A DNA stretch of 38,540 bases, taken from a virus. Every line of letters starts with the position of its first letter. Within the stretch, counting starts at the first letter, position 1. Position numbers and translations under genes: made by a program. The DNA is taken from positions 1 through 38,540 of the IMG/VR virus record IMGVR_UViG_3300037054_000098. The stretch is one strand, 5' to 3'. The notes under the pieces are model-generated. The model saw only the letters and a list, made by a program, of their open reading frames with translations. It searched no databases and was not told where the DNA came from. Below are positions 2,485-26,097 of the stretch, one piece after another.

Positions 2485-4847
2485 TTACTCAACCTGCGGT
2501 TCTTGACCTTCTACACCTAATGCTCCGGGTTCTCCACTAACAGCCTCTGACTCAGTATTGGCTCTAGCAGATTCTAATACAAAATCTCTTTTCATACGAA
2601 GATCAGTAGTTTGCTCATTTTCTTGAGCCTTTAGTTGGGCCTTCTGATTGTTCAAGGACATTTGACCTTGTAGCTTAGAGTTCTGTTGAGCAGTTTGATT
2701 CTTTTGAGCCATTCTCTGCTTCATTTCAGGAGTTAAAGGTTTAATAATATCCTGTACATCTTTCCATTCACTAGATTCCATCCACATTTTTAAAATTGGT
2801 TTAAAATCTATATACTCACCATTAATCTCTGCCAAGCTCTCTTGAAGCTGTGGATTATTAAAGATTTGAGTAATCAGTGTCAAAGATTGTGCCATAGTAC
2901 GTTTAGCAGCTAAAGAAGCCCCTGCTAACGTTTCATATTCCATAGCAGCATCGTGATATTCTTGCAAATTTACTGTAAATGTTTTGCCGAGTTCCTCACC
3001 AAGGATAGCTTCAATTTCAGTGTCTGGCATAAACCGTAAAACCAGCATATCTAAGATATATAAAAACGGTTTAAATACTTGGTCAATAAAATTATCTAAT
3101 GGCCCATCAAGACGGGTTGCACTCGCATTAGCTTGAATACCTGCACCACTTGCTGTCCGTCCCATAGAGGATCGTGGGCCAGCAGTAGAACCTTGTACTA
3201 ACTGTTGATCGGCTCCAGAGGAACTTTCAGTAGCTTGTTCTGACTCTCGCAGCGCATTCCATACATCACCGGGAACCTTAGGGGTTTCCATCAGCTTGTA
3301 GGCTTTTTCTACATCACCATCTACAGAAAGAATTTTACCAAGTCCGGTACGAATCATCTGTGTAGGATTATTAGAATCACGCTGACGTAAGTAAATTGGA
3401 TTAACACCAAAAGAAAGAATCTTGAGTATAGAGTTTATAGTACCTTGATCTACACGCTGGTTTTGACCAACGATCAACCCAAGTCCCATTCCAAAGAATG
3501 CTTTTGGACGGTTCCACCAATTAGCCGAAAGATAGTTAATACAGTTAAATTTATTCTTACCTGTCTGTATAACCTTCTTACGATCTACTACAGTAATCTT
3601 TCTTCCTTTATCTACATATTCTAAAATTTCTAGCTTATTACGTAGTAAGTCAGGACTAACACTTATACCTTCTTTTTCAGCATGATGGACAATACCTTGT
3701 GCTAATGCTGCTTGGTCTACAGTTAATGTGGGCATTGTTCCCGGTTCAGCGGGTGGTAACCACCATTGCATCAACTCATTTTCCGTTTTAGGAAAATGCC
3801 ACTCATCCTTTTCAGGATTATCATCCTCTAACGAATCAATTGCTGTCTTTAAATCTCGCAGTTGATAGAAATCCATATAAACTACATCAACAACAAAGTC
3901 AGCCAATCGAATATCACCATAACGAAGATGCGGGTCAACTAAAACACGTTCAATAGCTTTGCACTCAAAGAATGGTCTAGGAACAATCTTCTTAGTCTCT
4001 TCAATATCAGGTGCTCCCTCAAGAACAACTGTTTTATCAGTCTTAGCTGATGTTGATCCAGTAGGCCCAAAGGGAATAGTAGTGGTTCTAGCTTTTCTCT
4101 TGTAACTAATTACTTCTTTATATTCTATTCCCCATTTCCAGATACTAGTTCCTAGTAACCCCATTTGCTCTAGACCCCATTTAGTTTCTGTTTTAAATTT
4201 ACACTCATCTAGGAGATATGAGGCCATAGCAGTTTTAGCAGAAACTAAATCCTGTGTTGTTCCCGGTCTAGGGCGTAGGATCATTGGTGGGTCTGCATAG
4301 AATAACCCTTTGTATAAAGACGGAACTATGGCGTTCACTGTTTTTGCTACCGTGAAACGTTGCACATTTGGTTCGCTGGTTGTTAAATGCTAAAAGCATT
4401 GATAGAACATTTCTGCCTACCTCATACAATTTTTATTCTTGTATGTTCGGACTATCACTTCATCTCAAAAAGATGTTTACTCGTTTAGTCTCTCACGGTG
4501 CGTTTGCTTCCGCCTTGTTGCCATTTCAGGGTTCAAGTCAATTAGAGTAAATTCTCTAGCTTATCTTTCAATAAGTAGACCCCAATTCAATAATCTATAA
4601 ATCATTGATTCTAAAGGACATATGTGTTTTCGTACACCGACATGGGCCGTGGTGACTGGTAAAGCATGTCTGCATCTCTGAACAGGAGCGACCATTGTTT
4701 TGATGCAACATACGCTTCTGCTTTAGAGGCACTACCAACCACTAAACTCAAATCGGCTCCCAACGTTTCTAAATCTCCACTAGATGTATAATCTTCTGCC
4801 GTAAGTTGACGACTTGGATTAGCCGCATCTGTTTCGATAAGTGCCAT
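2485..4847 (-). CDS. Portal protein, two exons (4847-4615 joined to 4375-2485)
   Basis: The spliced product is 707 aa, the size of P22-like portal proteins. It forms the dodecameric ring through which DNA enters the capsid. Exon 1 (4847-4615) encodes the first 77 residues, ending ...SVYENTYV plus two bases. Exon 2 (4375-2485) begins in the middle of a Leu codon and reads LEPNVQRFTVAKTV. The join restores one frame with no lost residue. Downstream come YKGLFYADPPMILRPRPG, a long alpha/beta core, a Ser/Gly-rich stretch (ATESSSGADQQL...) and a Gln-rich C-terminus. Without splicing, exon 1 stops at TAG 4613-4611, and exon 2 has only an unlikely internal GTG at 4365. The start is ATG 4847-4845, overlapping the GIY-YIG stop as TAATG. 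Confidence 0.85.
4376..4614 (-). ncRNA. ORF-less group I self-splicing intron in the portal gene
   Basis: This 239-nt minus-strand insertion has group I core elements. The R-like segment GTGAGAGACTAAACG and the S-like segment GATAGTCC give P7 (GACTA 4490-4486 with TAGTC 4454-4450), with P8 CATCT...AGATG between them. The P/Q region reads TGAAATGGCAACAAGGCGG. P1 can form between exon GTCCU (4619-4615) and GGGGU (4583-4579), with U-G at the splice site. The intron ends in G at 4376. These junctions restore the portal frame. It encodes no endonuclease, but a GIY-YIG gene abuts exon 1. Exact ends could shift by a few bases. Confidence 0.85.
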
Positions 4848-5476
4848 TAAACCCCCATTTCATTGTTTTTACGTTTCAATAAACTAGCACTAATTTTGGC
4901 TTTATGTTCATCAGATAAAATTTTACCTTTATGTGCAGCACTAAGTTTTGCCTTAGTTTCATCTGTGTGTTTTATACCTGTGTGTGCTATTCGGTGTTTC
5001 TCTTGAACTTCTGGAGAATTTCTACTAATAATCATATTTGCTAAATGCTCTGGAGAAACTTTTTTTCCTCTTTGAGCGTCACCAATTTTTTGCTTAGTTT
5101 CTAAACTATGTGGGCCATTTTTTCTTCCTGTAAGAGTAGTAGAAATTTTATTTCTAGTTTCTTCTGATGGACACCACCCATGGTTTCCCTCTCCACCAGC
5201 AGTTAGGTTATAACCTTTTTCTAAATTATTAGATTGGTACATTTTGATAAAGAATTTTTCAGCAATGTCAGCCAATTCATTATCAACGGCAGTAGCAATT
5301 CTTTTTACAGAAAACGACTCCTCACCGTGTTTCCTGATAGAGTTATAGAGTGGTTTAAATGTGCCTCGCCTAGAGTGCCTAAGATGCTCTCCCCATCGTT
5401 CAGCAACATCCTTACAAGTCTGCCCCACATAGACTTTCCTGTTCTCTTTATTTGTAACTAGATAGATACTAAACAT
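4847..5476 (-). CDS. GIY-YIG homing endonuclease beside the intron-bearing portal
   Basis: This 209-aa protein has FSIYLVTNKENRKVYVGQT (GIY-YIG), RWGEHLRHS and a YNSIRKHGEESFSV helix. Three or four NUMOD3-like repeats follow (e.g. SEETRNKISTTLTGRKNG, SLETKQKIGDAQRGKK, TDETKAKLSAAHKGK), which contact DNA in this family. It ends at the portal start with a TAATG overlap. Its neighbour is interrupted by an intron with no ORF of its own, so this enzyme may mobilise the intron by cutting intron-less portal alleles (collaborative homing). That link is an inference. Confidence 0.88.
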   Translation of the reverse strand: MFSIYLVTNKENRKVYVGQTCKDVAERWGEHLRHSRRGTFKPLYNSIRKHGEESFSVKRIATAVDNELADIAEKFFIKMYQSNNLEKGYNLTAGGEGNHGWCPSEETRNKISTTLTGRKNGPHSLETKQKIGDAQRGKKVSPEHLANMIISRNSPEVQEKHRIAHTGIKHTDETKAKLSAAHKGKILSDEHKAKISASLLKRKNNEMGV

Positions 5477-7355: not shown

Positions 7356-9412
7356 TAGCCACCTATTACATCCTCTAATGGATTACCATAATTATCCGTA
7401 CTAGATACGTTTTGCCTAAATGCTTGTTCTAATTCCCAAGCCGTGGTCGGGTTATCGTCCACATAACCTTGATTCTGTCTAGCATATTTGCCTAAACAGT
7501 AGATTTGATTGTATCTTTCTTCTGATTGGCGATCTGCTACAAATTGTGTGGAAGCAAAGTTTATCTTACTTTCCATATCAGCATAGGGTTGAAATACTTC
7601 TGCTAATAAAGACAATGCAGAAACTATATCATCATGCGAATCATCTGCCGTTCCAGTAAACTTTTCTAATTCAGTATAGATATCTTGCAACCCTTCACAA
7701 GAATTTAAGAAGAACATTCGTTCATCTCCTAAAAGTCTCGCTACAGGCTTTGCCTTCATTTTCTTAGAATTAACTTTTGACCCATAGCCTAGGGAAACAA
7801 ATTCAACAGGTACAGTAATTCGTAATTTATCCATCTCTCTACGAAGTTCACGTCCCATCCATTTAACACCTACAGAATCTTCGATTGCTATCCTTTTTGG
7901 TTTCCATTTAAATGCACTAGCAGCAATAACCTGTGGAAGTTCAAATTCATTGAATCTTCCACGAATCATATTAATTATGTAAAACCGTCCCCCATAAATC
8001 AGCGCAGTAATCATTACGGTATAATCAGCCCAATTTTGAACTGAATACGCTGTGTCAACGGTCGCCACGATAATGCCTTGTTGCGGCAACTGGTTATGAG
8101 GAATAGTTCTACGCATCAGTAGTTCTTTTGGAAATTTTACTTGATGGTGTTTCCTAGGATTATTAACATACTTTACATAAAAATAAGGATCAAGCTTTTT
8201 CTTCTTATGTAAATACTCGTAAGATAATCTTTCAGGAAACCATAATACTAAATCTTTTTTAGTAAGCTCATCTTCAATCTTACCAAGTTGCTCGGCTTCC
8301 TCTGTTAACCACCAACACGCTCTAAGGTAGACCTTAATATAGGAATGACTATTAAATCGTCCAGAATCTACAGAGCCTGTAATAGTCTCTAAACCTTCAT
8401 CTTTAGATGCCTGTTCTTCTTGTTTAATTTTCTGTCCGTAATAGTCCTCATTATCATACCACGTTCCTAAAATATTCTTAAATCCATTAGGATTAAGCAA
8501 AGCTTCCATAATGCTTATAGATTTATTAGTTGCCTCAATTCTAGTTACTGTACGAGAATTTTCATCATTTACACAATCATCCAGTTTGAGAATCATATGG
8601 TGCCAGCCTGCCAAAGCCTGATCTAAAGATGCTGCTTTTACAGTCGGTTCTTTATCACCACTGCCTAATACTGCGGCTGAGTTCCATTCAAATTGTGTTC
8701 CATCATTCGGCTTAGTGCAATGTTCTCGAAATAGAACTTGAAAAACACTAGTAGTAAGTTCCCTTGTAGACTTATCTAGAAGCTTTGCAGGAGCATATGT
8801 TGGTTTCTTATTTTCATCCACTAATCCAGTCTCTGCTAGTGTAAAGTGGCCTTTAAGTTCACCTACAAAGCCTAATGCTAATGATAAAACTCCTGTGATA
8901 ATTGCTATAGTTACTTCTGGATAATTAATTGCCCACTGACAACAGTCTGCAATATCAATTGATGATTTGAATCCGCCACGAGGTACTAATAATAAATCTT
9001 CTTTTAATTCTGTATATTGATTGGCAAAATCATCAAAACTATTAAATGTTGGGTCTTTTTTTACGAAATGTGCATTGCAAATTTCTTCATGTGTCTCTAT
9101 TGTGGTAAGGTTATACTTCTCCAAAATATGACATAGAAAGAAAAGGTTTGTCTGACAAAGAAAACGATAAATTTGTAATTGCTCTAAATAGAAGTGAAAT
9201 TCTAAAGAGTCCGGTTTGATTAGACTTGATGTGACTCTTTTTTCTTCCGCCAAATAATCAAACCAACTTTGAGTTACTAATGCTTTCTGATCGGAAGTTA
9301 GTCTATTCCATGATTTTTTAGCAGAATCTAAACAAGCATCCTTGCTTCTATATTTATAATTAGGATGAGTCCATGCAGCTTCTACTAGTTGTTCCAATTT
9401 ATCCAGATGCAC
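7355..9412 (-). CDS. terL: Terminase large subunit
   Basis: 685-aa packaging motor. The N-terminal ATPase has a Walker A variant LLVPRGGFKSSIDIA (about residues 138-152), a Walker B-like MILKLDDCVND and adenine-motif-type residues before it. The C-terminal RNase H-like nuclease shows the first acidic residue in IVATVDTAYSVQNWADYTVM, a second in KRIAIEDSVGVKW, and the last in DSHDDIVSALSLL. It drives DNA translocation and cuts concatemers at the portal. Its start overlaps the end of the GIY-YIG gene by 14 nt. No small terminase was recognised nearby; the 69-aa gene at 10102 is a positional candidate only. Confidence 0.93.
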   Translation of the reverse strand: MHLDKLEQLVEAAWTHPNYKYRSKDACLDSAKKSWNRLTSDQKALVTQSWFDYLAEEKRVTSSLIKPDSLEFHFYLEQLQIYRFLCQTNLFFLCHILEKYNLTTIETHEEICNAHFVKKDPTFNSFDDFANQYTELKEDLLLVPRGGFKSSIDIADCCQWAINYPEVTIAIITGVLSLALGFVGELKGHFTLAETGLVDENKKPTYAPAKLLDKSTRELTTSVFQVLFREHCTKPNDGTQFEWNSAAVLGSGDKEPTVKAASLDQALAGWHHMILKLDDCVNDENSRTVTRIEATNKSISIMEALLNPNGFKNILGTWYDNEDYYGQKIKQEEQASKDEGLETITGSVDSGRFNSHSYIKVYLRACWWLTEEAEQLGKIEDELTKKDLVLWFPERLSYEYLHKKKKLDPYFYVKYVNNPRKHHQVKFPKELLMRRTIPHNQLPQQGIIVATVDTAYSVQNWADYTVMITALIYGGRFYIINMIRGRFNEFELPQVIAASAFKWKPKRIAIEDSVGVKWMGRELRREMDKLRITVPVEFVSLGYGSKVNSKKMKAKPVARLLGDERMFFLNSCEGLQDIYTELEKFTGTADDSHDDIVSALSLLAEVFQPYADMESKINFASTQFVADRQSEERYNQIYCLGKYARQNQGYVDDNPTTAWELEQAFRQNVSSTDNYGNPLEDVIGG

Positions 9413-10070
9413 GTCTTGCCTCCCAAACGGCCTTCATTCTTATACTTTGTGCTAACCTTTTTTCTGGGGTATTTGCACAACTGGCCGCTCTTCGCAATCT
9501 TTCTTTTGCTTCTGGAGTAGAACATATTTTTTTAAGAGCAATACTCCGTTTTTCTAATGTTTCTTGTGAAGGTATTCTGCCTGTTGAGGCTTTGCTCATT
9601 TTCTGCCGAGTTTCTTCTGAAACAGGTTTTTCTCTAAACGCTTTCATTTTGGCAACCACATCAGGAGCAGCCATTCCTCTTTTAGTTGCTTCACTTGTCT
9701 TTTTTCTAGATTCGGGGTTTTTATAATACTCTAAAAGAGTATTAGAAATTCTAGACCTAACTTCTGGTGATGGGCTATATCCATTCATACCATCACCTCC
9801 GTCAGTACAATTATACACCTTGCCAAAACTACGAAAAAATGCTATAAACAGTTTCTCAAAAAAATTCAAGTCAGATTCTGCACAAGGAATAAGCTCAACT
9901 TCAAAATTATCTATTCCATACATCCTAATGGCGCGATGAAACGGAAAATGACTTCCTCTATTGGCCCAAGTAATATGATCCCATCTTCGTTCTTTAAAAT
10001 CTTTCGTCTTGCCTATATAGGCTTTTCCACTTGGACTAGTAAATATATAAATACAATGTTCACAAGGCAT
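9399..10070 (-). CDS. GIY-YIG homing endonuclease upstream of terminase
   Basis: 223 aa. Nuclease core: CIYIFTSPSGKAYIGKT, then FKERRWDHITWA, FHRAIRMYGIDNFEVELI and the catalytic-glutamate region NFFEKLFIAFF. NUMOD3-type repeats follow (SPEVRSRISNTLLEY, SEETRQKMSKASTGR, SQETLEKRSIAL). The RBS is AGGAGATAGCC before ATG. It overlaps the first codons of terL by 14 nt, so it sits where terL translation would otherwise start from its own leader. Confidence 0.88.
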   Translation of the reverse strand: MPCEHCIYIFTSPSGKAYIGKTKDFKERRWDHITWANRGSHFPFHRAIRMYGIDNFEVELIPCAESDLNFFEKLFIAFFRSFGKVYNCTDGGDGMNGYSPSPEVRSRISNTLLEYYKNPESRKKTSEATKRGMAAPDVVAKMKAFREKPVSEETRQKMSKASTGRIPSQETLEKRSIALKKICSTPEAKERLRRAASCANTPEKRLAQSIRMKAVWEARRASG

Positions 10071-14788: not shown

Positions 14789-14958
14789 TAGCCTTTCTTT
14801 TTATTCTTTCGAGCAGTAGATAATACTATCGCAATTCTTTGTTTGTTGGCAGCTTGGCGACCTTTCTTTTTTAAGGTTTTAGCATAAGTATTACCAGCCC
14901 CTAGCTCATCAAAATTTTTCTTAATAACTTTTTTCGATTTACCCCGTAATAGTGGCAT
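14788..14958 (-). CDS. 56-aa basic protein, DUF6496-like
   Basis: MPLLRGKSKKVIKKNF... ends QRIAIVLSTARKNKKKG. The basic build and the AIA-x-L-x-x-ARK ending resemble DUF6496-type small phage proteins found among structural genes. RBS GGAGGAAAAAAA before ATG 14958. It overlaps the downstream gene by TAATG and the end of the endonuclease VII-like gene by 20 nt. Confidence 0.65.
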   Translation of the reverse strand: MPLLRGKSKKVIKKNFDELGAGNTYAKTLKKKGRQAANKQRIAIVLSTARKNKKKG

Positions 14959-15487
14959 TTTTTTCCTCCTTAAATTTATTCAAATAATCTATTGCACAGT
15001 CTAAATATTGAACATTGTCTCTAAAAGCTCCTAAGCCTCTATTACAATGGTTACACAAAAGCATTCTAATTTTTCCACTAACATGGTCGTGATCAATATG
15101 TGGTACTTTTATAAAAGTCTCTCTACAAATTGCACATCTATTTTCCTGTTGAAGAAGTTTGTTTTCCACATCATCAGCAGTTAATCCATAAAGCTGCTTA
15201 ATTCTTCGTAAACTGTATTTTTTAGGGTTAATTTTATAGTCTAAATTCCTAGCCTCATTGAGCCTGTCTTTATTATTATTCCAATGTTCCCTTGCTTTCA
15301 GGTTAAATTCTTCTTTATGATTGTTATAGTATGCTTTTTTCCTTAAAGTAATTTTCTCCCTATTATTGCAATAATATTGATTTTGTTTTAATATTCTACA
15401 CTCTTTACAAACATTACGTATATACTCTCCGTTTGTATAAAACGCACTAACCTCTTTTTCAACACCACATTTCTTACAGGTTTTCAT
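14939..15487 (-). CDS. Endonuclease VII-like HNH nuclease
   Basis: 182 aa. N-terminal zinc ribbon KTCKKCGVEKEVSAF...CKECR, a middle of Asn/Lys/Arg helical repeats, then the endonuclease VII domain: LLQQENRCAICRETF, HIDHDHVSGKIRMLLCNHCNRGLGAFRDN. The zinc cysteines, DHDH and the CNxGLGxFxDN loop are all present. In T4 this fold resolves Holliday junctions; stand-alone phage copies like this one mostly act as mobile endonucleases. It is wedged between the phosphatase and the 56-aa gene. Confidence 0.88.
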   Translation of the reverse strand: MKTCKKCGVEKEVSAFYTNGEYIRNVCKECRILKQNQYYCNNREKITLRKKAYYNNHKEEFNLKAREHWNNNKDRLNEARNLDYKINPKKYSLRRIKQLYGLTADDVENKLLQQENRCAICRETFIKVPHIDHDHVSGKIRMLLCNHCNRGLGAFRDNVQYLDCAIDYLNKFKEEKNATITG

Positions 15488-18043: not shown

Positions 18044-18117
18044 TGGCGCGTCAAGTAGGATTTGAACCTACAACTCATGCTTTTGGAGAGCAGTATTTTG
18101 CTTGCTACTATTGACGT
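18044..18117 (-). tRNA. tRNA-Trp (CCA)
   Basis: 74 nt with encoded CCA. Acceptor ACGTCAA/TTGACGC pairs except for A1-C72; discriminator G. Anticodon loop CTCCAAA gives CCA. T arm GTAGG-TTCAAAT-CCTAC. The terminal mismatch is unusual but the rest is sound. Confidence 0.85.
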
Positions 18118-19249: not shown

Positions 19250-19509
19250 ATACACCCACCACAGAGGACTTTAGAATCACAACAAACCTGTAAACTTTAT
19301 AACAGTCAAACATGTTGCTATCTTGTGGAGGAACTCTACCTATACCCACATGCCTCAGGACGTGATTCGATACCGTTGCCCCGATAGAACCTTTTCAGGA
19401 AAGACCAGTCTTTGGTTGCTATTACTCGATACGCACGTTGTTTATTGGGAAAAGGATTACGTAGAACCAACCCGCAGCTTTCGCTACCTTACCTTCAATT
19501 GTAAGTTTA

Positions 19510-19538
19510 ACTATACACCTATTATAACACCTTGTCAA
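19510..19538 (-). promoter_or_regulatory. Sigma70-type promoter, minus strand
   Basis: -35 TTGACA (19538-19533), 17-nt spacer, -10 TATAGT (19515-19510). Transcription should start near 19503 and run leftwards through the noncoding region, the tRNA-Leu pair and on to the holin-like gene. Confidence 0.75.
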
Positions 19539-19582
19539 GCCTAAAGTTGCTATTTTTGAAAATATTTTTATCTTGTTGAAAA

Positions 19583-19658
19583 TGGTGGGTTTGGCAGGAA
19601 TCGAACCTGCGTCATTCGGCTTAAAGGGCCGTTGCAGTTGCCTCTATGCGACAAACCC
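19583..19658 (-). tRNA. tRNA-Lys (UUU)
   Basis: 76 nt, CCA encoded. Acceptor GGGTTTG/CAAACCC, discriminator A. Anticodon loop CCTTTAA gives UUU; stem CGGC/GCCG with an A-A mismatch at its base. T arm GCAGG-TTCGATT-CCTGC. Its first 15 nt double as the last codons of the HNH gene. Confidence 0.9.
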
Positions 19659-20102
19659 AATATTTAAAATGCCAGAATCAAACTCAATATGATGGTTTGG
19701 GCACAATCCAATTAAATTGTCTAAACTGTTTACAATACCAAGTTTAGTGTGTTCATTAAATTTTGCTACAGGTTTTATATGACAACAATCAACTCGAAAT
19801 GTATATTTACAAATTTTGCATTTATCTAATAATCCTGCATCTTTGGCAATTCTTCTGGCATGAGTTCTAATTCGAGTACGGGCATTTTTTAAAATTCCTA
19901 TTGGAGTGTTTAAATTTAAAACACTTGATTTATAACATTCAGTACAATATTTAAACTTTGATTGTATTAGAATGTTACATAGATCACACTTTTTAGTTCT
20001 TAAACGTTTGATAACAACTTTGTTATTATAAGTTGCAGCACAACTTCTTGAACAAAACTTACTGTTATTGGTGTTTATACTACATGTTAAACATTTATTC
20101 AT
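19644..20102 (-). CDS. HNH endonuclease between two tRNA genes
   Basis: 152 aa with two N-terminal zinc-finger-like blocks (CLTCSINTNNSKFCSRSC; CDLCNILIQSKFKYCTECY), a basic middle (RTRIRTHARRIAKDAG), then an HNH domain: CKICKYTFRVDCCHIKPVAKF, SLDNLIGLCPNHHIEFDSG. The last codons (GFVA-stop) are the 5' end of tRNA-Lys, so the gene is inserted flush against the tRNA. Typical of mobile HNH genes that settle in tRNA clusters. Confidence 0.85.
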   Translation of the reverse strand: MNKCLTCSINTNNSKFCSRSCAATYNNKVVIKRLRTKKCDLCNILIQSKFKYCTECYKSSVLNLNTPIGILKNARTRIRTHARRIAKDAGLLDKCKICKYTFRVDCCHIKPVAKFNEHTKLGIVNSLDNLIGLCPNHHIEFDSGILNIGFVA

Positions 20103-20829: not shown

Positions 20830-23334
20830 ATGAAGTCTGTGCCAATACTTTCACAACTCGTTTTAAACCCTCCACTTAATATCCAAGTGATTGAAAATGA
20901 AGAACAATTAGAAGAATTGTGTTCCTTTTTAGATTCACAGAAGATTGTAGGATTAGATATAGAAACAACCCCTACAAAAGATTTTTGGTGGCGGCGTTGT
21001 AGAACAATTCAGTTCGGAAATGTTGACCATCAATTTGTAATTGACTTACTATCATTTTGTGATGGGGATTCTCAATTACTTTTTGATTGTCAAGGTGAGT
21101 ATGGTAAGAGGCTTGAATTAGCACCGAGATTAAAAAAACTAATTGAGAAATTAAAGCCATATATATGTGAGGGCAAGCTTTTACTTTGCGGGACAAATCT
21201 TGGGTTCGAGTATATGACTTTCTACTGGAATTTTGGATTACGTACTTGGAATTTTTACGATTGCATGTTGGCCGAAAAGTGTATCTATGCAGGATATCAT
21301 AGTCTGAAAGACTATTCATTCTTTTCTTTAGAAGAAATGATGGGAAGGTATTTCCATGTAGACATTGATAAGAGCCTTCAAGAATCTTTTACATTAGATG
21401 GGATACTCACACAGGCACAATATGAATATGCTGCACTAGACACCAGATTACCTTTAGCTATTAAAGCTGCACAAGAATTAATTATTACTGGACAAACTAT
21501 TAAAAGCCGTAAGATGAAAGGATTAGGAACGGTTATTTTAGAACGTATTGATCCTATAGTTACTGGTGATAATCTAGAAGAAGTTGTACAGATTGAAAAT
21601 GATGCTATTGGTGCATTTGTTGACATGCATTTGCATGGAGAATATATAGACCATGATAAATGGATGAAGCGCATTGAGACACGTAAGATTGAACTAAAAG
21701 ACGTTATAATTAAATTAGATGAAGTTTTTATTCCATTAGTTGGAAAAAAGGAAGCACCAGTTCCTCAAGAAGCTGTAGATGCTGCACGAGCAGATTGGGA
21801 GAAATACAAAAAAGTAACTGATGAAGAACTTGCATTAAAAGGACAGGCGCGTAAAGACAAGAAAGCAGAACGGGAGAAACAAAGAGATTATTATAAACAA
21901 ATTTATCAAGAATTAAAATCAAAGGCTACTAAAAAGAATCTTAAAGAATTTGAAAGCTGCGAAGGGAATGCTTTAATAAATTATGGGTCTAGTACACAAC
22001 TATTAAAAGTATTAGTAACTATAAAGGGATTAAAGAACCTAAAAGATACTAATGATGACACACTTGAGCAGTTTAACAATATTACTATCATCAAGTTAAT
22101 TCAAGATTATAGGGAAATTAGTAAGGAAATTGATACTTATGGAGAAGCTTGGGTAACCTGTTGGGTAGAAAAACCTTGTAAAGAACAAGGTTGGGTTCAT
22201 CCGGGTGATAAAAAAATACACCACGTTTATAATCAAAATGAAGCCGAGACAGGTCGTAGTAGCAGTGAAAAACCTAATGGTCAGAATATTCCACCACCAT
22301 TTAGAGAGTGTTATATAGTTGACCCTCCAGATGAAAAAGAACCTGATGGTTATTCTATGGTAATTTGTGATGCCGCAGGTTGTGAACTACGTATTATTGC
22401 CGAGTTAAGTGGTGACCCAATTTGGATTAATGCTTTTAAAAATGATGAGGATGTTCATAGTGTAGGGACTGAAATTCTTTATCCAGAAGAATGGCCTAAA
22501 GTAAAATGCTTGGGCGGTGAAAAAATTATTAAAAATGGTAAAGAAAAGATTTTACCTCCCTGTGCCTATTATAAATTAAAACCAGATGATATCTACCCTC
22601 AACGTCATAAATGTGAATGTCCGCAGCATGAACTATTGAGGAAAAATAATAAAAGCGCCAACTTTCTTCTCGCATATGGTGGAGGCCCTAATAAACTAGC
22701 AAAGGAAATAAAACAATCGTTTACTGTAGCTAAAGAATTAATGGCTAAACATGAACGTTCCTTTCCTCGTATTTGGGATTACTTGACAAAATCAGGTCAA
22801 AGTTCTAGAATTAATGGTAGGTCATTTGATATGTTTGGGAGGCGTAGATTATTTCCTCAACCGACTTGGGAAAGAGCAAAAGAATTAGCCCGTGAGAAAA
22901 GAAAAGAACGTTTAGAATTTTCCATAGAAGTACAGAAGAAGAATATGGAAACTTTTGTTGCACTTCATAAACGTAAACCAAATAAAGAGGAGCTATGGTA
23001 TCTCCAACACAGAGAGGTTTCGTCACAAGAAATTGGAAACGCTATGCAAGCGATGGGATGGGGTATAGAGCGTCAAGGTAAGAATCATGCAATACAAGGC
23101 TCAAACGCTTCACTAGCAAAGATAGCATTAGCCAGTCTTTGGCACATATTGCCAAATTATAATGCTAGGTTAACGGGTTTCGTCCATGATGAAATCAAAA
23201 TTCAATGTCCAAAAAGATTTTCTGAACAAGTTGCAAAAGAAGTAGTCGAGGCTTTTAGGAAATCAGTATTACCAAAAATGAAATCAGTTGAAATGAAGGC
23301 TGATTTTAAAATTAGTGACCACTGGGAGAAATAA
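20830..23334 (+). CDS. polA: DNA polymerase, family A (T7-like, with exonuclease domain)
   Basis: 834-aa replicative polymerase. The 3'-5' exonuclease domain has the DxE motif in IVGLDIETTPTKDFWWRRC and a later YAALDTRLPLAIKA. The polymerase domain shows GRSSSEKPNGQNIPP (T7-type), motif A MVICDAAGCELRIIAELSGD, motif B KSANFLLAYGGGPNKLAKE and motif C TGFVHDEIKIQ (HDE). In motif A the usual serine is alanine (DAAGCELR). An insert between motifs A and B carries several cysteines (PPCAYYKL, HKCECPQH) that could bind zinc. The start ATG has only a weak purine-rich upstream. It is divergent from rnhA across a 66-nt gap. Confidence 0.95.
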   Translation: MKSVPILSQLVLNPPLNIQVIENEEQLEELCSFLDSQKIVGLDIETTPTKDFWWRRCRTIQFGNVDHQFVIDLLSFCDGDSQLLFDCQGEYGKRLELAPRLKKLIEKLKPYICEGKLLLCGTNLGFEYMTFYWNFGLRTWNFYDCMLAEKCIYAGYHSLKDYSFFSLEEMMGRYFHVDIDKSLQESFTLDGILTQAQYEYAALDTRLPLAIKAAQELIITGQTIKSRKMKGLGTVILERIDPIVTGDNLEEVVQIENDAIGAFVDMHLHGEYIDHDKWMKRIETRKIELKDVIIKLDEVFIPLVGKKEAPVPQEAVDAARADWEKYKKVTDEELALKGQARKDKKAEREKQRDYYKQIYQELKSKATKKNLKEFESCEGNALINYGSSTQLLKVLVTIKGLKNLKDTNDDTLEQFNNITIIKLIQDYREISKEIDTYGEAWVTCWVEKPCKEQGWVHPGDKKIHHVYNQNEAETGRSSSEKPNGQNIPPPFRECYIVDPPDEKEPDGYSMVICDAAGCELRIIAELSGDPIWINAFKNDEDVHSVGTEILYPEEWPKVKCLGGEKIIKNGKEKILPPCAYYKLKPDDIYPQRHKCECPQHELLRKNNKSANFLLAYGGGPNKLAKEIKQSFTVAKELMAKHERSFPRIWDYLTKSGQSSRINGRSFDMFGRRRLFPQPTWERAKELAREKRKERLEFSIEVQKKNMETFVALHKRKPNKEELWYLQHREVSSQEIGNAMQAMGWGIERQGKNHAIQGSNASLAKIALASLWHILPNYNARLTGFVHDEIKIQCPKRFSEQVAKEVVEAFRKSVLPKMKSVEMKADFKISDHWEK

Positions 23335-23860
23335 ATTGAATAATAAGTGTATAAATATTACAAATAAAAAATTTGGAAGATTGTTAGTTATAAAAAGAGT
23401 TAAACGTAAACACAGATATAAGTGGCTTTGTAAATGTGATTGTGGTAATATAAAGGCTGTTGATAGTTCAGCATTAAGACGCGGTGCTACTAAATCTTGT
23501 GGGTGTCTGCACAGAGAAAAATGTGGTGGACAAAATAGATTACGACCATATGAATCGCTTTATAATACTTTTATTGGTAAAGCAAAGGTCAAACATCTAA
23601 AAGTTCTATCATATAAACAATTTTTGAAATTTACGACCATATTAAATTGTCATTATTGTAAGTCACCTATTACATGGGCTAAATATTATCCAAATAAAAA
23701 CGGAAGTGGCTATAACCTTGATAGAAAAAACAATAAAAAGGGTTATACAGTGAATAATTGTGTAGTTTGTTGTAAACGCTGTAATGCTGGAAAATCCAAT
23801 ATATTCACATACGAACAGTGGCTCCAGATAGGTAAACTTATTCAATCATGGGAGAAATAA
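23323..23860 (+). repeat. 12-nt direct repeat flanking the HNH gene
   Basis: TGGGAGAAATAA occurs at 23323-23334 (end of polA) and again at 23849-23860 (end of the HNH gene). Each copy supplies a stop codon and a ribosome binding site. This is the footprint expected if the HNH gene entered a polA-zincin junction. Confidence 0.8.
23336..23860 (+). CDS. HNH endonuclease inserted after the DNA polymerase
   Basis: 174 aa from TTG 23336, which follows GGGAGAAATAAA (the polymerase stop region serving as RBS). The N-terminus is a zinc-binding AP2-like block (WLCKCDCGNIKAVDSSAL..SCGC); the C-terminus is an HNH: NCHYCKSPI, GYNLDRKNNKKGYTVNNCVVCCKRCNAGKS. The gene is flanked by an exact 12-nt direct repeat, TGGGAGAAATAA. 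It therefore leaves the RBS of both itself and the next gene intact. Confidence 0.85.
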   Translation: MNNKCINITNKKFGRLLVIKRVKRKHRYKWLCKCDCGNIKAVDSSALRRGATKSCGCLHREKCGGQNRLRPYESLYNTFIGKAKVKHLKVLSYKQFLKFTTILNCHYCKSPITWAKYYPNKNGSGYNLDRKNNKKGYTVNNCVVCCKRCNAGKSNIFTYEQWLQIGKLIQSWEK

Positions 23861-24480: not shown

Positions 24481-25047
24481 ATGATGACAGAGGAACGGTT
24501 GCAGTGGTTCAAGACGCTGGTCGCTGTCCACGAACCTGAACTTGGCGAACTATTCCAAGAAATTGACCGTCTGCGCTCGGTAGGTTCGGCTCTCACGCAG
24601 CCCCCTCGCCAGAGCATAGCTAGTGACGAAATCCCTTACCGTGGGCCGTTTGTGTTTAGTGCGTTTGGGAGTGGCGCGGCTCCCGCGCGGCATACTCTCT
24701 ACCGTCAGACGATCCTTAATCAAGCAAAGACAAACGATAAGTTGCGGGCCGAGCTAAAGGAAGGGCACGAACATTACATAGAGATTCTCGCCAAATACTG
24801 CGCAGCTAATGAACGCGCCGAGAAAGCCGAGGCCGAGAACGAGCAGCACGACCGCAAGGTCAAGCAGGAGGCGCTAAGAGAGGCAGCAGAATTGTGCGAT
24901 CAGGTAGCTGATGACCGAGACGCTAACGACCAGACGTATGGAGCAGCGATGGAATGTGGCGCTAGGCTCCGCGCCAGTGCCGACGCCCTCGACCCGCAGG
25001 CCGGGGGGGCCGTTCCCGAATCGGGAGCGCCAGCGAAAGAAATGTGA
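24481..25047 (+). CDS. Inserted GC-rich phage-type protein of unknown function
   Basis: 188 aa from ATG 24481 with a good RBS (GGAGG then 7 nt). A coiled middle (NDKLRAELKEGHEHYIEILA, ANERAEKAEAENEQHDRKV) is followed by LREAAELCDQVADDRDANDQ and a CGARLRASADAL end. This ending is a common architecture of small accessory proteins in phages of GC-rich hosts. The block from about 24425 to 25055 is GC-rich while both flanks are AT-rich, so it looks like a recently acquired gene with its own RBS. Function unknown. Confidence 0.7.
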   Translation: MMTEERLQWFKTLVAVHEPELGELFQEIDRLRSVGSALTQPPRQSIASDEIPYRGPFVFSAFGSGAAPARHTLYRQTILNQAKTNDKLRAELKEGHEHYIEILAKYCAANERAEKAEAENEQHDRKVKQEALREAAELCDQVADDRDANDQTYGAAMECGARLRASADALDPQAGGAVPESGAPAKEM

Positions 25048-25055
25048 AATAGTTC

Positions 25056-25085
25056 TTGACGGAAGATTCCCCACGGTCTTATTAT
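25056..25085 (+). promoter_or_regulatory. Promoter at the right edge of the GC-rich insert
   Basis: -35 TTGACG (25056-25061), 18-nt spacer, -10 TATTAT (25080-25085). Expected start near 25092, just before the endonuclease VII-like fragment, so it would also transcribe the tmRNA candidate. Confidence 0.55.
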
Positions 25086-25096
25086 GCAGACATGGA

Positions 25097-25369
25097 ATGG
25101 AACTTCAAACTTATAGCGGGTGTATTGATGCAACAGGCGAGTCTAAAACTGATAATTGTGAAATTTGTGGAACATTTACTAAACTTGTTTATGACTACAA
25201 TCATTCCACAGGAGAGTTTAGAGGTTGGTTATGTATGATTTGTAACACTCGATTAGGTCATTATGAGTCTTGGTATTTAGTCAATAAAGAGATTATAGAT
25301 AAATATTTAAGTTCTTCTGTGAAAGCAGAGAATAAACCTGTAGATGGTGAACCACTTTCCTGTATATAA
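25097..25369 (+). CDS. C-terminal endonuclease VII-like domain (possibly mini-gene)
   Basis: 91 aa from ATG 25097. NCEICGTFTKLVYDYNHSTGEFRGWLCMICNTRLGHYES without the linker gives the two zinc CxxC pairs and the betabeta-alpha loop. The usual DHxH reads DYNH, so the first histidine is lost and catalysis is doubtful. It probably belonged with the fragment at 24277 before the GC-rich insertion. The last codons overlap the start of the tmRNA acceptor piece. Whether it is still translated is unknown. Confidence 0.55.
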   Translation: MELQTYSGCIDATGESKTDNCEICGTFTKLVYDYNHSTGEFRGWLCMICNTRLGHYESWYLVNKEIIDKYLSSSVKAENKPVDGEPLSCI

Positions 25370-25615
25370 CAGGGGTTCGACTCCCCTCGCCTCCACCATA
25401 AAAACAACGGGGGCGTCACGGCACGAATAGCAGAGATAATGGCACTAGCAGGTAGAGTAGTATGGCCGCTTTAAAGACATGCAAACCATAAAAGCGAAAA
25501 GCGATTATGTCAACAGTGTTCCTTCGTGGATGATTCCTAACGGAGCATCTTCGGTAAATGGAGTTGCTGTAGGAGCGTAAGCTCAAGCCGCTTAGGTGGG
25601 CGGGATATAAATACA
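25354..25615 (+). ncRNA. ssrA: Candidate circularly permuted tmRNA
   Basis: Acceptor piece first: P2 3' strand (ACTTT-CCTGT, 25354-25363), T arm AGGGG-TTCGACT-CCCCT (25371-25387), acceptor CGCCTCC, discriminator A, CCA (25396-25398). A 10-nt spacer follows. Then the coding piece: acceptor GGGGGCG (25409-25415), giving G3-U70 (alanine identity), a tmRNA-like TCACGGCACGAATAG, and P2 5' strand (TAGCAGG-T-AGAGT, 25446-25458). PK1 follows as an H-type pseudoknot: TATGG/CCATA and CGCTTT/AAAGCG. A tag-like frame ends GVAVGA with TAA (25578-25580) in the loop of hairpin GAGC-GTAA-GCTC. This order is that of two-piece permuted tmRNA genes. The resume codon is uncertain (AAC 25512 or an upstream in-frame codon), as are the outer ends. 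Confidence 0.8.
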
Positions 25616-25623
25616 CCATTTTG

Positions 25624-25727
25624 AATTGGCCACATAACCCGACTGTGTGAGGCTAGGACTAAAGGCAGAAGGTGTTAAAGTCACAGATCACCTAATGATG
25701 ACAATAAGTGTCCTAATGTGGCCAATT
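25624..25727 (+). ncRNA. Pseudoknotted RNA element between tmRNA and next gene
   Basis: A perfect 12-bp stem AATTGGCCACAT (25624-25635) with ATGTGGCCAATT (25716-25727) closes 80 nt. Stacked on it is TAGGAC (25654-25659) with GTCCTA (25710-25715), and inside that AGGTG/CACCT (25670-25674 with 25689-25693). The loop of that hairpin contains CACAG, which complements CTGTG (25643-25647) in the bulge, a kissing or pseudoknot contact. The structure ends 7 nt before ATG 25735. It may be a leader switch, or part of tmRNA 3' maturation. Confidence 0.65.
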
Positions 25728-25734
25728 GAGAATT

Positions 25735-26097
25735 ATGCTTGAACAATTACCAGATGGGTCGTGGCAAGGTAAGTACCTATATTATCTCGATAAGGGAAAG
25801 TTGAATAAAGGGGCACTTACTAACAAATTTGAAGTACGCAATCGAAAGAATAATGGGTTGATAGGATTTATCAAGTGGTATCCTATGTGGCGCAAATATT
25901 GTTTTGTTCCACTTAATTGTATCTTAGATGATGGGTGTATGGTAGAGATTGCTGAGTTTACTAAAGGACGTACTGATAAACATCTAGAGTCTAGTAGGAA
26001 GAAAAAAATTGGTGTAAGAATACCTTTTATACAACAACCATTAAGGTTTCCAAAGGAAACTGTACCATTTTCTCAAGTAGGGCATGAGTATGACTAA
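25735..26097 (+). CDS. Hypothetical protein
   Basis: 120 aa from ATG 25735; a TTG three codons earlier is possible but lies within the stem. MLEQLPDGSWQGKYLYYLDKG... is rich in Lys/Phe/Tyr, with IGFIKWYPMWRKYCFVPLNC in the middle, possibly a small beta domain. Not recognised. A structured RNA occupies its leader, so translation may be regulated. The next small gene overlaps its stop. Confidence 0.6.
   Translation: MLEQLPDGSWQGKYLYYLDKGKLNKGALTNKFEVRNRKNNGLIGFIKWYPMWRKYCFVPLNCILDDGCMVEIAEFTKGRTDKHLESSRKKKIGVRIPFIQQPLRFPKETVPFSQVGHEYD

Follow-up and report, generated by a model that had tools for sequence, protein, structure and literature searches.

A phage-encoded, circularly permuted tmRNA gene that recurs in a lineage with Acidobacteriota-infecting isolates

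We found that a soil-phage fragment carries a gene for a circularly permuted (two-piece) tmRNA. The window, which is the whole stretch of DNA analyzed, is a 38,540-base IMG/VR virus record. Its genes include those for portal, terminase, DNA polymerase A, RNase H, several homing-type endonucleases, and about 10 tRNAs. The tmRNA gene occupies positions 25336 to 25584, about 2 kb downstream of the DNA polymerase gene, as judged by ARAGORN in permuted mode and by the Rfam model RF04321 (tmRNA_permuted). We consider it very likely that this is a phage-encoded permuted ssrA gene whose RNA would be delivered to stalled ribosomes by host factors.

ARAGORN, run in permuted mode as the sequence-only reading of this DNA had proposed, called a permuted tmRNA at 25302 to 25671. 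It made no tmRNA call in 2,000 dinucleotide shuffles of positions 25200 to 25800. RF04321 matched positions 25336 to 25580 over the full model with 61 bits (E = 3.5e-13 in this record; gathering threshold, 47 bits). Together with the terminase, portal, and DNA polymerase A genes, these calls bear out the proposal of a permuted tmRNA in a phage. Of the clade-specific Rfam tmRNA models that had been suggested, the alpha model had no match within the window, the beta model reached 27.9 bits, under its cut-off, and a full Rfam scan of the window gave nothing above the gathering score for cyano_tmRNA (RF01851). The window tmRNA is assigned to neither the alpha nor the beta clade.

The features of the gene are listed in Table 1. 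We found the acceptor-first order, the 10-nt spacer, G3-U70, the T arm, the cross-piece P2, PK1, and the stop hairpin all at the positions where the sequence-only reading had put them. Its extent of 25354 to 25615 held for the placement of these elements but not for the start, since P2 already begins at 25336. All seven acceptor pairs are formed, including G3-U70. P2 pairs GCAGGU (25448 to 25453) with ACCUGU (25336 to 25341), CACUA with UGGUG, UGG with CCA, and the proximal GCAG with CUGU. Thus, the interrupted P2 helix described earlier is present, but its pairing exceeds the 12 bp that it had been given.

Table 1. Features of the window tmRNA gene and the ORF that overlaps it
Feature	Positions	Strand	Details
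Endonuclease VII-like HNH ORF, neighbor outside the RNA	24911-25369	+	Last 34 nt overlap the acceptor piece
P2 3' side, start of acceptor piece	25336-25370	+	Among 12 partners for the window P2 5' strand, its own gives the most stable pairing
P2 3' segments	25336-25341; 25345-25349; 25352-25354; 25360-25365	+	ACCUGU; UGGUG; CCA; CUGU/CUGUAU
T arm	25371-25387	+	Stem AGGGG/CCCCT, loop TTCGACT; ARAGORN, Rfam, lineage covariation
Acceptor 3' strand	25388-25394	+	CGCCUCC; then discriminator A25395 and encoded CCA at 25396-25398 (acceptor-piece 3' end)
Intervening segment	25399-25408	+	10 nt; expected to be removed
Acceptor 5' strand, coding-piece 5' end	25409-25415	+	GGGGGCG; RNase P site expected before 25409
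D-arm-like stretch	25416-25429	+	UCACGGCACGAAUA; the lineage consensus GGUUUCGACGG differs
P2 5' side	25430-25453	+	GCAG ... UGG CACUA GCAGGU
PK1 pseudoknot	25453-25482	+	UAGAGU/GCUUUA and GUAUG/CAUGC
Tag frame	25494-25580	+	AKSDYVNSVPSWMIPNGASSVNGVAVGA-UAA (UAA at 25578-25580); resume codon GCG (Ala)
P5-like hairpin	25573-25584	+	GAGC-GUAA-GCUC; stop codon inside the loop
Second coding-piece hairpin	25588-25603	+	3' of the tag; piece ends at 25671 according to ARAGORN

Several other features surround the gene. The endonuclease VII-like HNH ORF that overlaps the acceptor piece was not seen beside the tmRNA of the related record L125. Homing-type endonucleases (GIY-YIG, HNH, and endonuclease VII) are numerous in the window, with examples at 4847 to 5476, 9399 to 10070, 14939 to 15487, 19644 to 20102, and 23315 to 23860. 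RF04321 also gave weak side matches on the T arms of ordinary tRNAs in the window; the one at 19367 to 19613 (26 bits) apparently falls on the T arm of a tRNA-Lys. A tRNA at 18047 to 18117 on the minus strand was detected by Rfam and not by ARAGORN. Downstream of the tmRNA lies an 18-nt inverted repeat (25618 to 25635 and 25716 to 25733; 89% complementary, arms 80 nt apart, fold z-score of -2.7). An ORF starting at 25735 has its likely ribosome-binding site within the right arm. Neither an Rfam match nor a convincing phage match was found for this repeat.

To find relatives, we defined the lineage by its DNA polymerase A, and a profile search gave 18 IMG/VR loci. Tunturi_3 and Tunturi_4, cultured phages of Tunturiibacter (Acidobacteriota), have DNA polymerases with 45% and 34% identity to that of the window over the whole protein, and both carry a permuted tmRNA. 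From these two isolates, we infer that the host of the window phage is also a member of the Acidobacteriota. RF04321 scored above its cut-off in 12 of the 17 DNA-polymerase-related records that were searched whole; four of the five records without a match are fragments under 20 kb. L162 and L164 hold an identical tmRNA, which leaves 12 distinct sequences with that of the window. The DNA polymerase tree groups the window with Tunturi_3 and six others in a clade with 100/100 support, and the gene is present in seven of these eight. More distant members of the tree, including Tunturi_4, carry the tmRNA too. This distribution suggests that the gene is ancestral to the lineage. Searches by exact pattern or by downstream protein found no close relatives of the window tmRNA. 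The metallophosphoesterase gene was rejected as a lineage marker: its 26 matches did not seem specific to the lineage, and one contig was up to 373 kb.

ARAGORN detected only 6 of the 12 distinct lineage tmRNAs and misread the tag of one of these six, so phage tmRNAs are under-annotated. For L125-L128, it gave the tag GKADEWIFMGSVGG, which we rejected because it is the frame giving VTESVSHSRVRFSVRKSVVAAQLLAA that fits the lineage. Around the Tunturi genes, the GenBank annotation includes no tmRNA, and none is mentioned in the main text of the corresponding paper (PMC11924767).

The folding energy of the whole window molecule was uninformative (z of about 0.3), and we therefore tested pairing across the two pieces in the 12 distinct tmRNAs, window included. 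We found every acceptor-stem and T-arm cell paired in these 12 tmRNAs (100%), compared with a mean of 77.6% after shuffling and 47 to 55% in slid controls. Two-sided changes occur at 7 of the 12 acceptor and T-arm pairs (29 cells), and acceptor pairs 4 to 6 covary. The covariation score of the acceptor stem and T arm was 0.609, against 0.128 ± 0.034 for shuffled and at most 0.152 for slid alignments. All 12 have G-U at pair 3, so the G3-U70 pair read from the window alone is an invariant of the lineage. For P2, strands paired with their own partners had a mean of -22.2 kcal/mol, compared with -16.2 kcal/mol for swapped partners, and 100,000 permutations yielded no value as favorable as the real one. 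The stretches brought together by P2 and the acceptor stem lie 10 to 219 nt apart, and this is strong evidence for a single RNA made of the two halves.

The sequence-only reading had pointed to covariation of P2, PK1, and the acceptor in homologous phages as a check. Acceptor and P2 covary as described; PK1 is supported in another way. Its stems in the window (25453 to 25458 with 25468 to 25473 and 25460 to 25464 with 25478 to 25482) end 11 nt before the GCG codon, and taken by themselves they are not beyond chance, as 5 of 60 shuffles were as good. The PK1 layout and the 11-nt gap to the resume codon are common to the window, L153, L164, and L165. It is this common layout in relatives that makes the window PK1 plausible.

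The window copy also departs from its relatives. Its D-loop-like stretch, GGCACGAAUAG, deviates from the lineage consensus GGuUUCGACgG, and its 3' region is without the AGCAACAGAA-type motif present in several relatives. The window copy could be weakened by these changes. Its intervening segment is 10 nt long, compared with 24 to 219 nt in the other lineage members; segments of 4 to 34 nt occur in many phage genes among the pattern matches listed. The long segments of L153 and L157, between the CCA and the acceptor 5' strand, hold extra T-arm-like sequences (GGTTCGA and GCTCGAACC). In the tmRNAs of L156, L163, and L164, the T loop has 6 nt (UUCGAU), not 7.

The window tag has 28 residues (frame 25494 to 25577) and ends in VGA. 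A possible non-Ala resume codon had been suggested earlier, and this is not supported: the codon at the expected distance of 11 nt past PK1 is GCG (Ala), and ARAGORN and RF04321 agree on it. Another frame, read by eye and starting with GCA AAC at 25481 (ANHKSEKRLCQQCSFVDDS), was rejected, as it begins within PK1 and does not finish in the stop hairpin. Among the relatives, L154 (Tunturi_3, 88172 to 88396) has no clear Ala codon for resumption, with AGA or ATC where such a codon is expected, and the resume codon of L160 is apparently GTC (Val). Lineage tags are 14 to 36 residues long with a median of 28, compared with a median of 13 for other phage tags among the matches listed (Mann-Whitney P = 4e-5). 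Thus, the window tag, which had been called unusual in length, is long next to those of other phages but ordinary within its lineage.

The idea of a private tag held up, in that the lineage has tags of its own, and the window's ends in VGA with its stop codon in a hairpin loop. The tails are AGA in L165, AGR in L163 and L164, VMA in L157 and L159, LAA or MAA in L154, L158, L160, and L161, and VAA in L153; L156 was left out of the count because its frame runs off the contig. We found that 6 of 11 lineage tags, window included, do not end in Ala-Ala, compared with 3 of 57 other phage tags among the matches listed. A Fisher test run with 3 of 59 others among those matches gave P = 2e-4, a value to be read with the facts that lineage tags were read by hand, that comparison tags were called by ARAGORN, and that related tags are not independent. 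An Ala-Ala tail recognized by ClpXP is typical of tmRNA tags, though not strictly defining. The VGA tail of the window lacks it and, should host ClpXP act as its Escherichia coli counterpart does, would be expected to be a poorer signal for that protease.

We found no SmpB gene in the window or in any of the related records searched, and host SmpB must therefore be used. Previous work found ssrA and smpB in 45 of 46 Acidobacteriota genomes (PMC11633108). We also found that Tunturi_4 encodes a 115-residue RF-1-domain protein with a GGQ motif (L198:1147-1494, i.e., 43946 to 44293), on the same strand as the tmRNA match and 5 bp upstream of it. It is not annotated as ArfB and resembles the GGQ domain of release factors. 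Tunturi_3 has a similar GGQ gene at 82616 to 82783, about 5 kb from its tmRNA. In the other records, including the window, no RF-1-domain GGQ gene exceeded the cut-off.

By analogy with bacterial tmRNAs, we infer how the RNA would be processed and charged, how it would rescue ribosomes, and how the phage might benefit. According to this model, the acceptor piece would precede the tag-coding piece on one transcript. As in bacterial two-piece tmRNA, RNase P would cut before G25409 and 3' trimming would leave the CCA at 25398, with the acceptor stem and P2 holding the two pieces together. Host alanyl-tRNA synthetase would charge the RNA by way of G3-U70, and host SmpB and EF-Tu would bring it to ribosomes that have stalled on broken mRNA. 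There, translation would resume at GCG, add the 28-residue tag, and end at UAA, freeing the ribosome. The phage may benefit from ribosomes freed during infection, when mRNA is degraded.

The same observations can be read in other ways. The RNA could be a decoy that is charged and bound by SmpB yet is poor at tagging, titrating SmpB and so dampening host trans-translation. Such a role has been proposed for the tRNA-like-domain-only tmRNA of mycobacteriophage DS6A, which is without a tag, unlike that of the window, and a similar RNA consisting of this domain alone inhibits tmRNA (PMC4131195); the divergent D-loop-like segment of the window and the lack of SmpB in the phage records would also suit a decoy. 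A decoy would, however, need none of the intact tag frame, PK1, 11-nt spacing, and stop hairpin of the window, nor the long open tags maintained across the lineage, and we regard this reading as quite improbable. Slightly less probable still is that the window gene is a decaying copy without present function in its phage. Decay would account for the divergent D-loop-like stretch, the missing 3' motif, the very short intervening segment, and the HNH gene that extends into the acceptor piece, but the window retains all 12 acceptor and T-arm pairs, its P2 5' strand has its best partner among 12 in its own 3' strand, the 28-codon frame is open, and intervening segments about as short are found in the other phage genes noted above. 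The weak RF04321 matches on ordinary tRNA T arms might speak for a chance likeness or for a different RNA, such as a permuted intron or two tRNA-like fragments lying side by side. Against this reading stand the 61-bit full-model match and the absence of ARAGORN calls in the shuffles, and it is refuted at practical certainty by covariation, which extends to both halves of the RNA in the 12 phages.

The rescue tmRNA that we favor shares its acceptor-first order, G3-U70, T arm, P2, plausible PK1, and tag frame with bacterial two-piece tmRNAs, and it scores over the RF04321 cut-off. It differs from them in being phage borne, in its 28-residue tag that ends in VGA rather than AA, in its altered D-loop-like stretch, and in the 3' part of its coding piece, which has no match to the clade-specific models. 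Phage-borne two-piece tmRNAs are already known from the Methylophilales phage Melnitz and marine phages (PMC9004378); the Melnitz tmRNA is related to that of a bacterial group other than its host's. In that survey of 18,146 phage genomes, two-piece forms suggested by ARAGORN made up 53 of 133 unique phage tmRNA structures and came mostly from marine or aquatic phages. The tmRNA database holds 79 bacteriophage tmRNAs (PMC11915505). The window lineage, in contrast, comes from soil, has two members cultured on Acidobacteriota, and carries different tags, and the window has no Rfam match to a glutamine riboswitch. In IMG/VR, a strict search pattern for permuted tmRNAs matched at least 120 stretches.

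Caulobacter phiCbK-like phages also carry a permuted tmRNA. In phiCbK (L003, 101816 to 104846), it is unannotated, and ARAGORN gives the tag VAANDNDVVAFASAREAIAA, which retains AA; the alphaproteobacterial host has a permuted tmRNA of its own. Matching T-arm DNA occurs in the related Caulobacter phages. Mycobacteriophages (the Bxz1 group and Wildcat) and Bacillus phage G encode ssrA as the window does, and their tmRNA genes are one-piece.

Permuted tmRNA in phages is therefore not new. What is new is its recurrence through a lineage with Acidobacteriota-infecting isolates and the frequent tags without Ala-Ala. A more speculative proposal, rather doubtful as it stands, is that the lineage kept a permuted tmRNA though its hosts use the one-piece form, and that its tags evolved away from the Ala-Ala degron (to VGA, AGA, AGR, or VMA), so that ribosomes rescued during infection would add a phage-specific tag that would be poorly degraded by host ClpXP or read by another factor. 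The GGQ hydrolase might then be a second rescue route in some members, such as Tunturi_4.

Our findings add a soil lineage, with two isolates that infect Acidobacteriota, to the mainly marine and aquatic phages known to carry two-piece tmRNA. The interest of this lineage lies in the conservation of the gene, the loss of the Ala-Ala tail in about half of its tags, and the release-factor-like gene adjacent to the tmRNA in Tunturi_4. With Tunturi_3 and Tunturi_4 in culture, it becomes possible to test for phage-directed ribosome rescue and to learn what becomes of tags without Ala-Ala.
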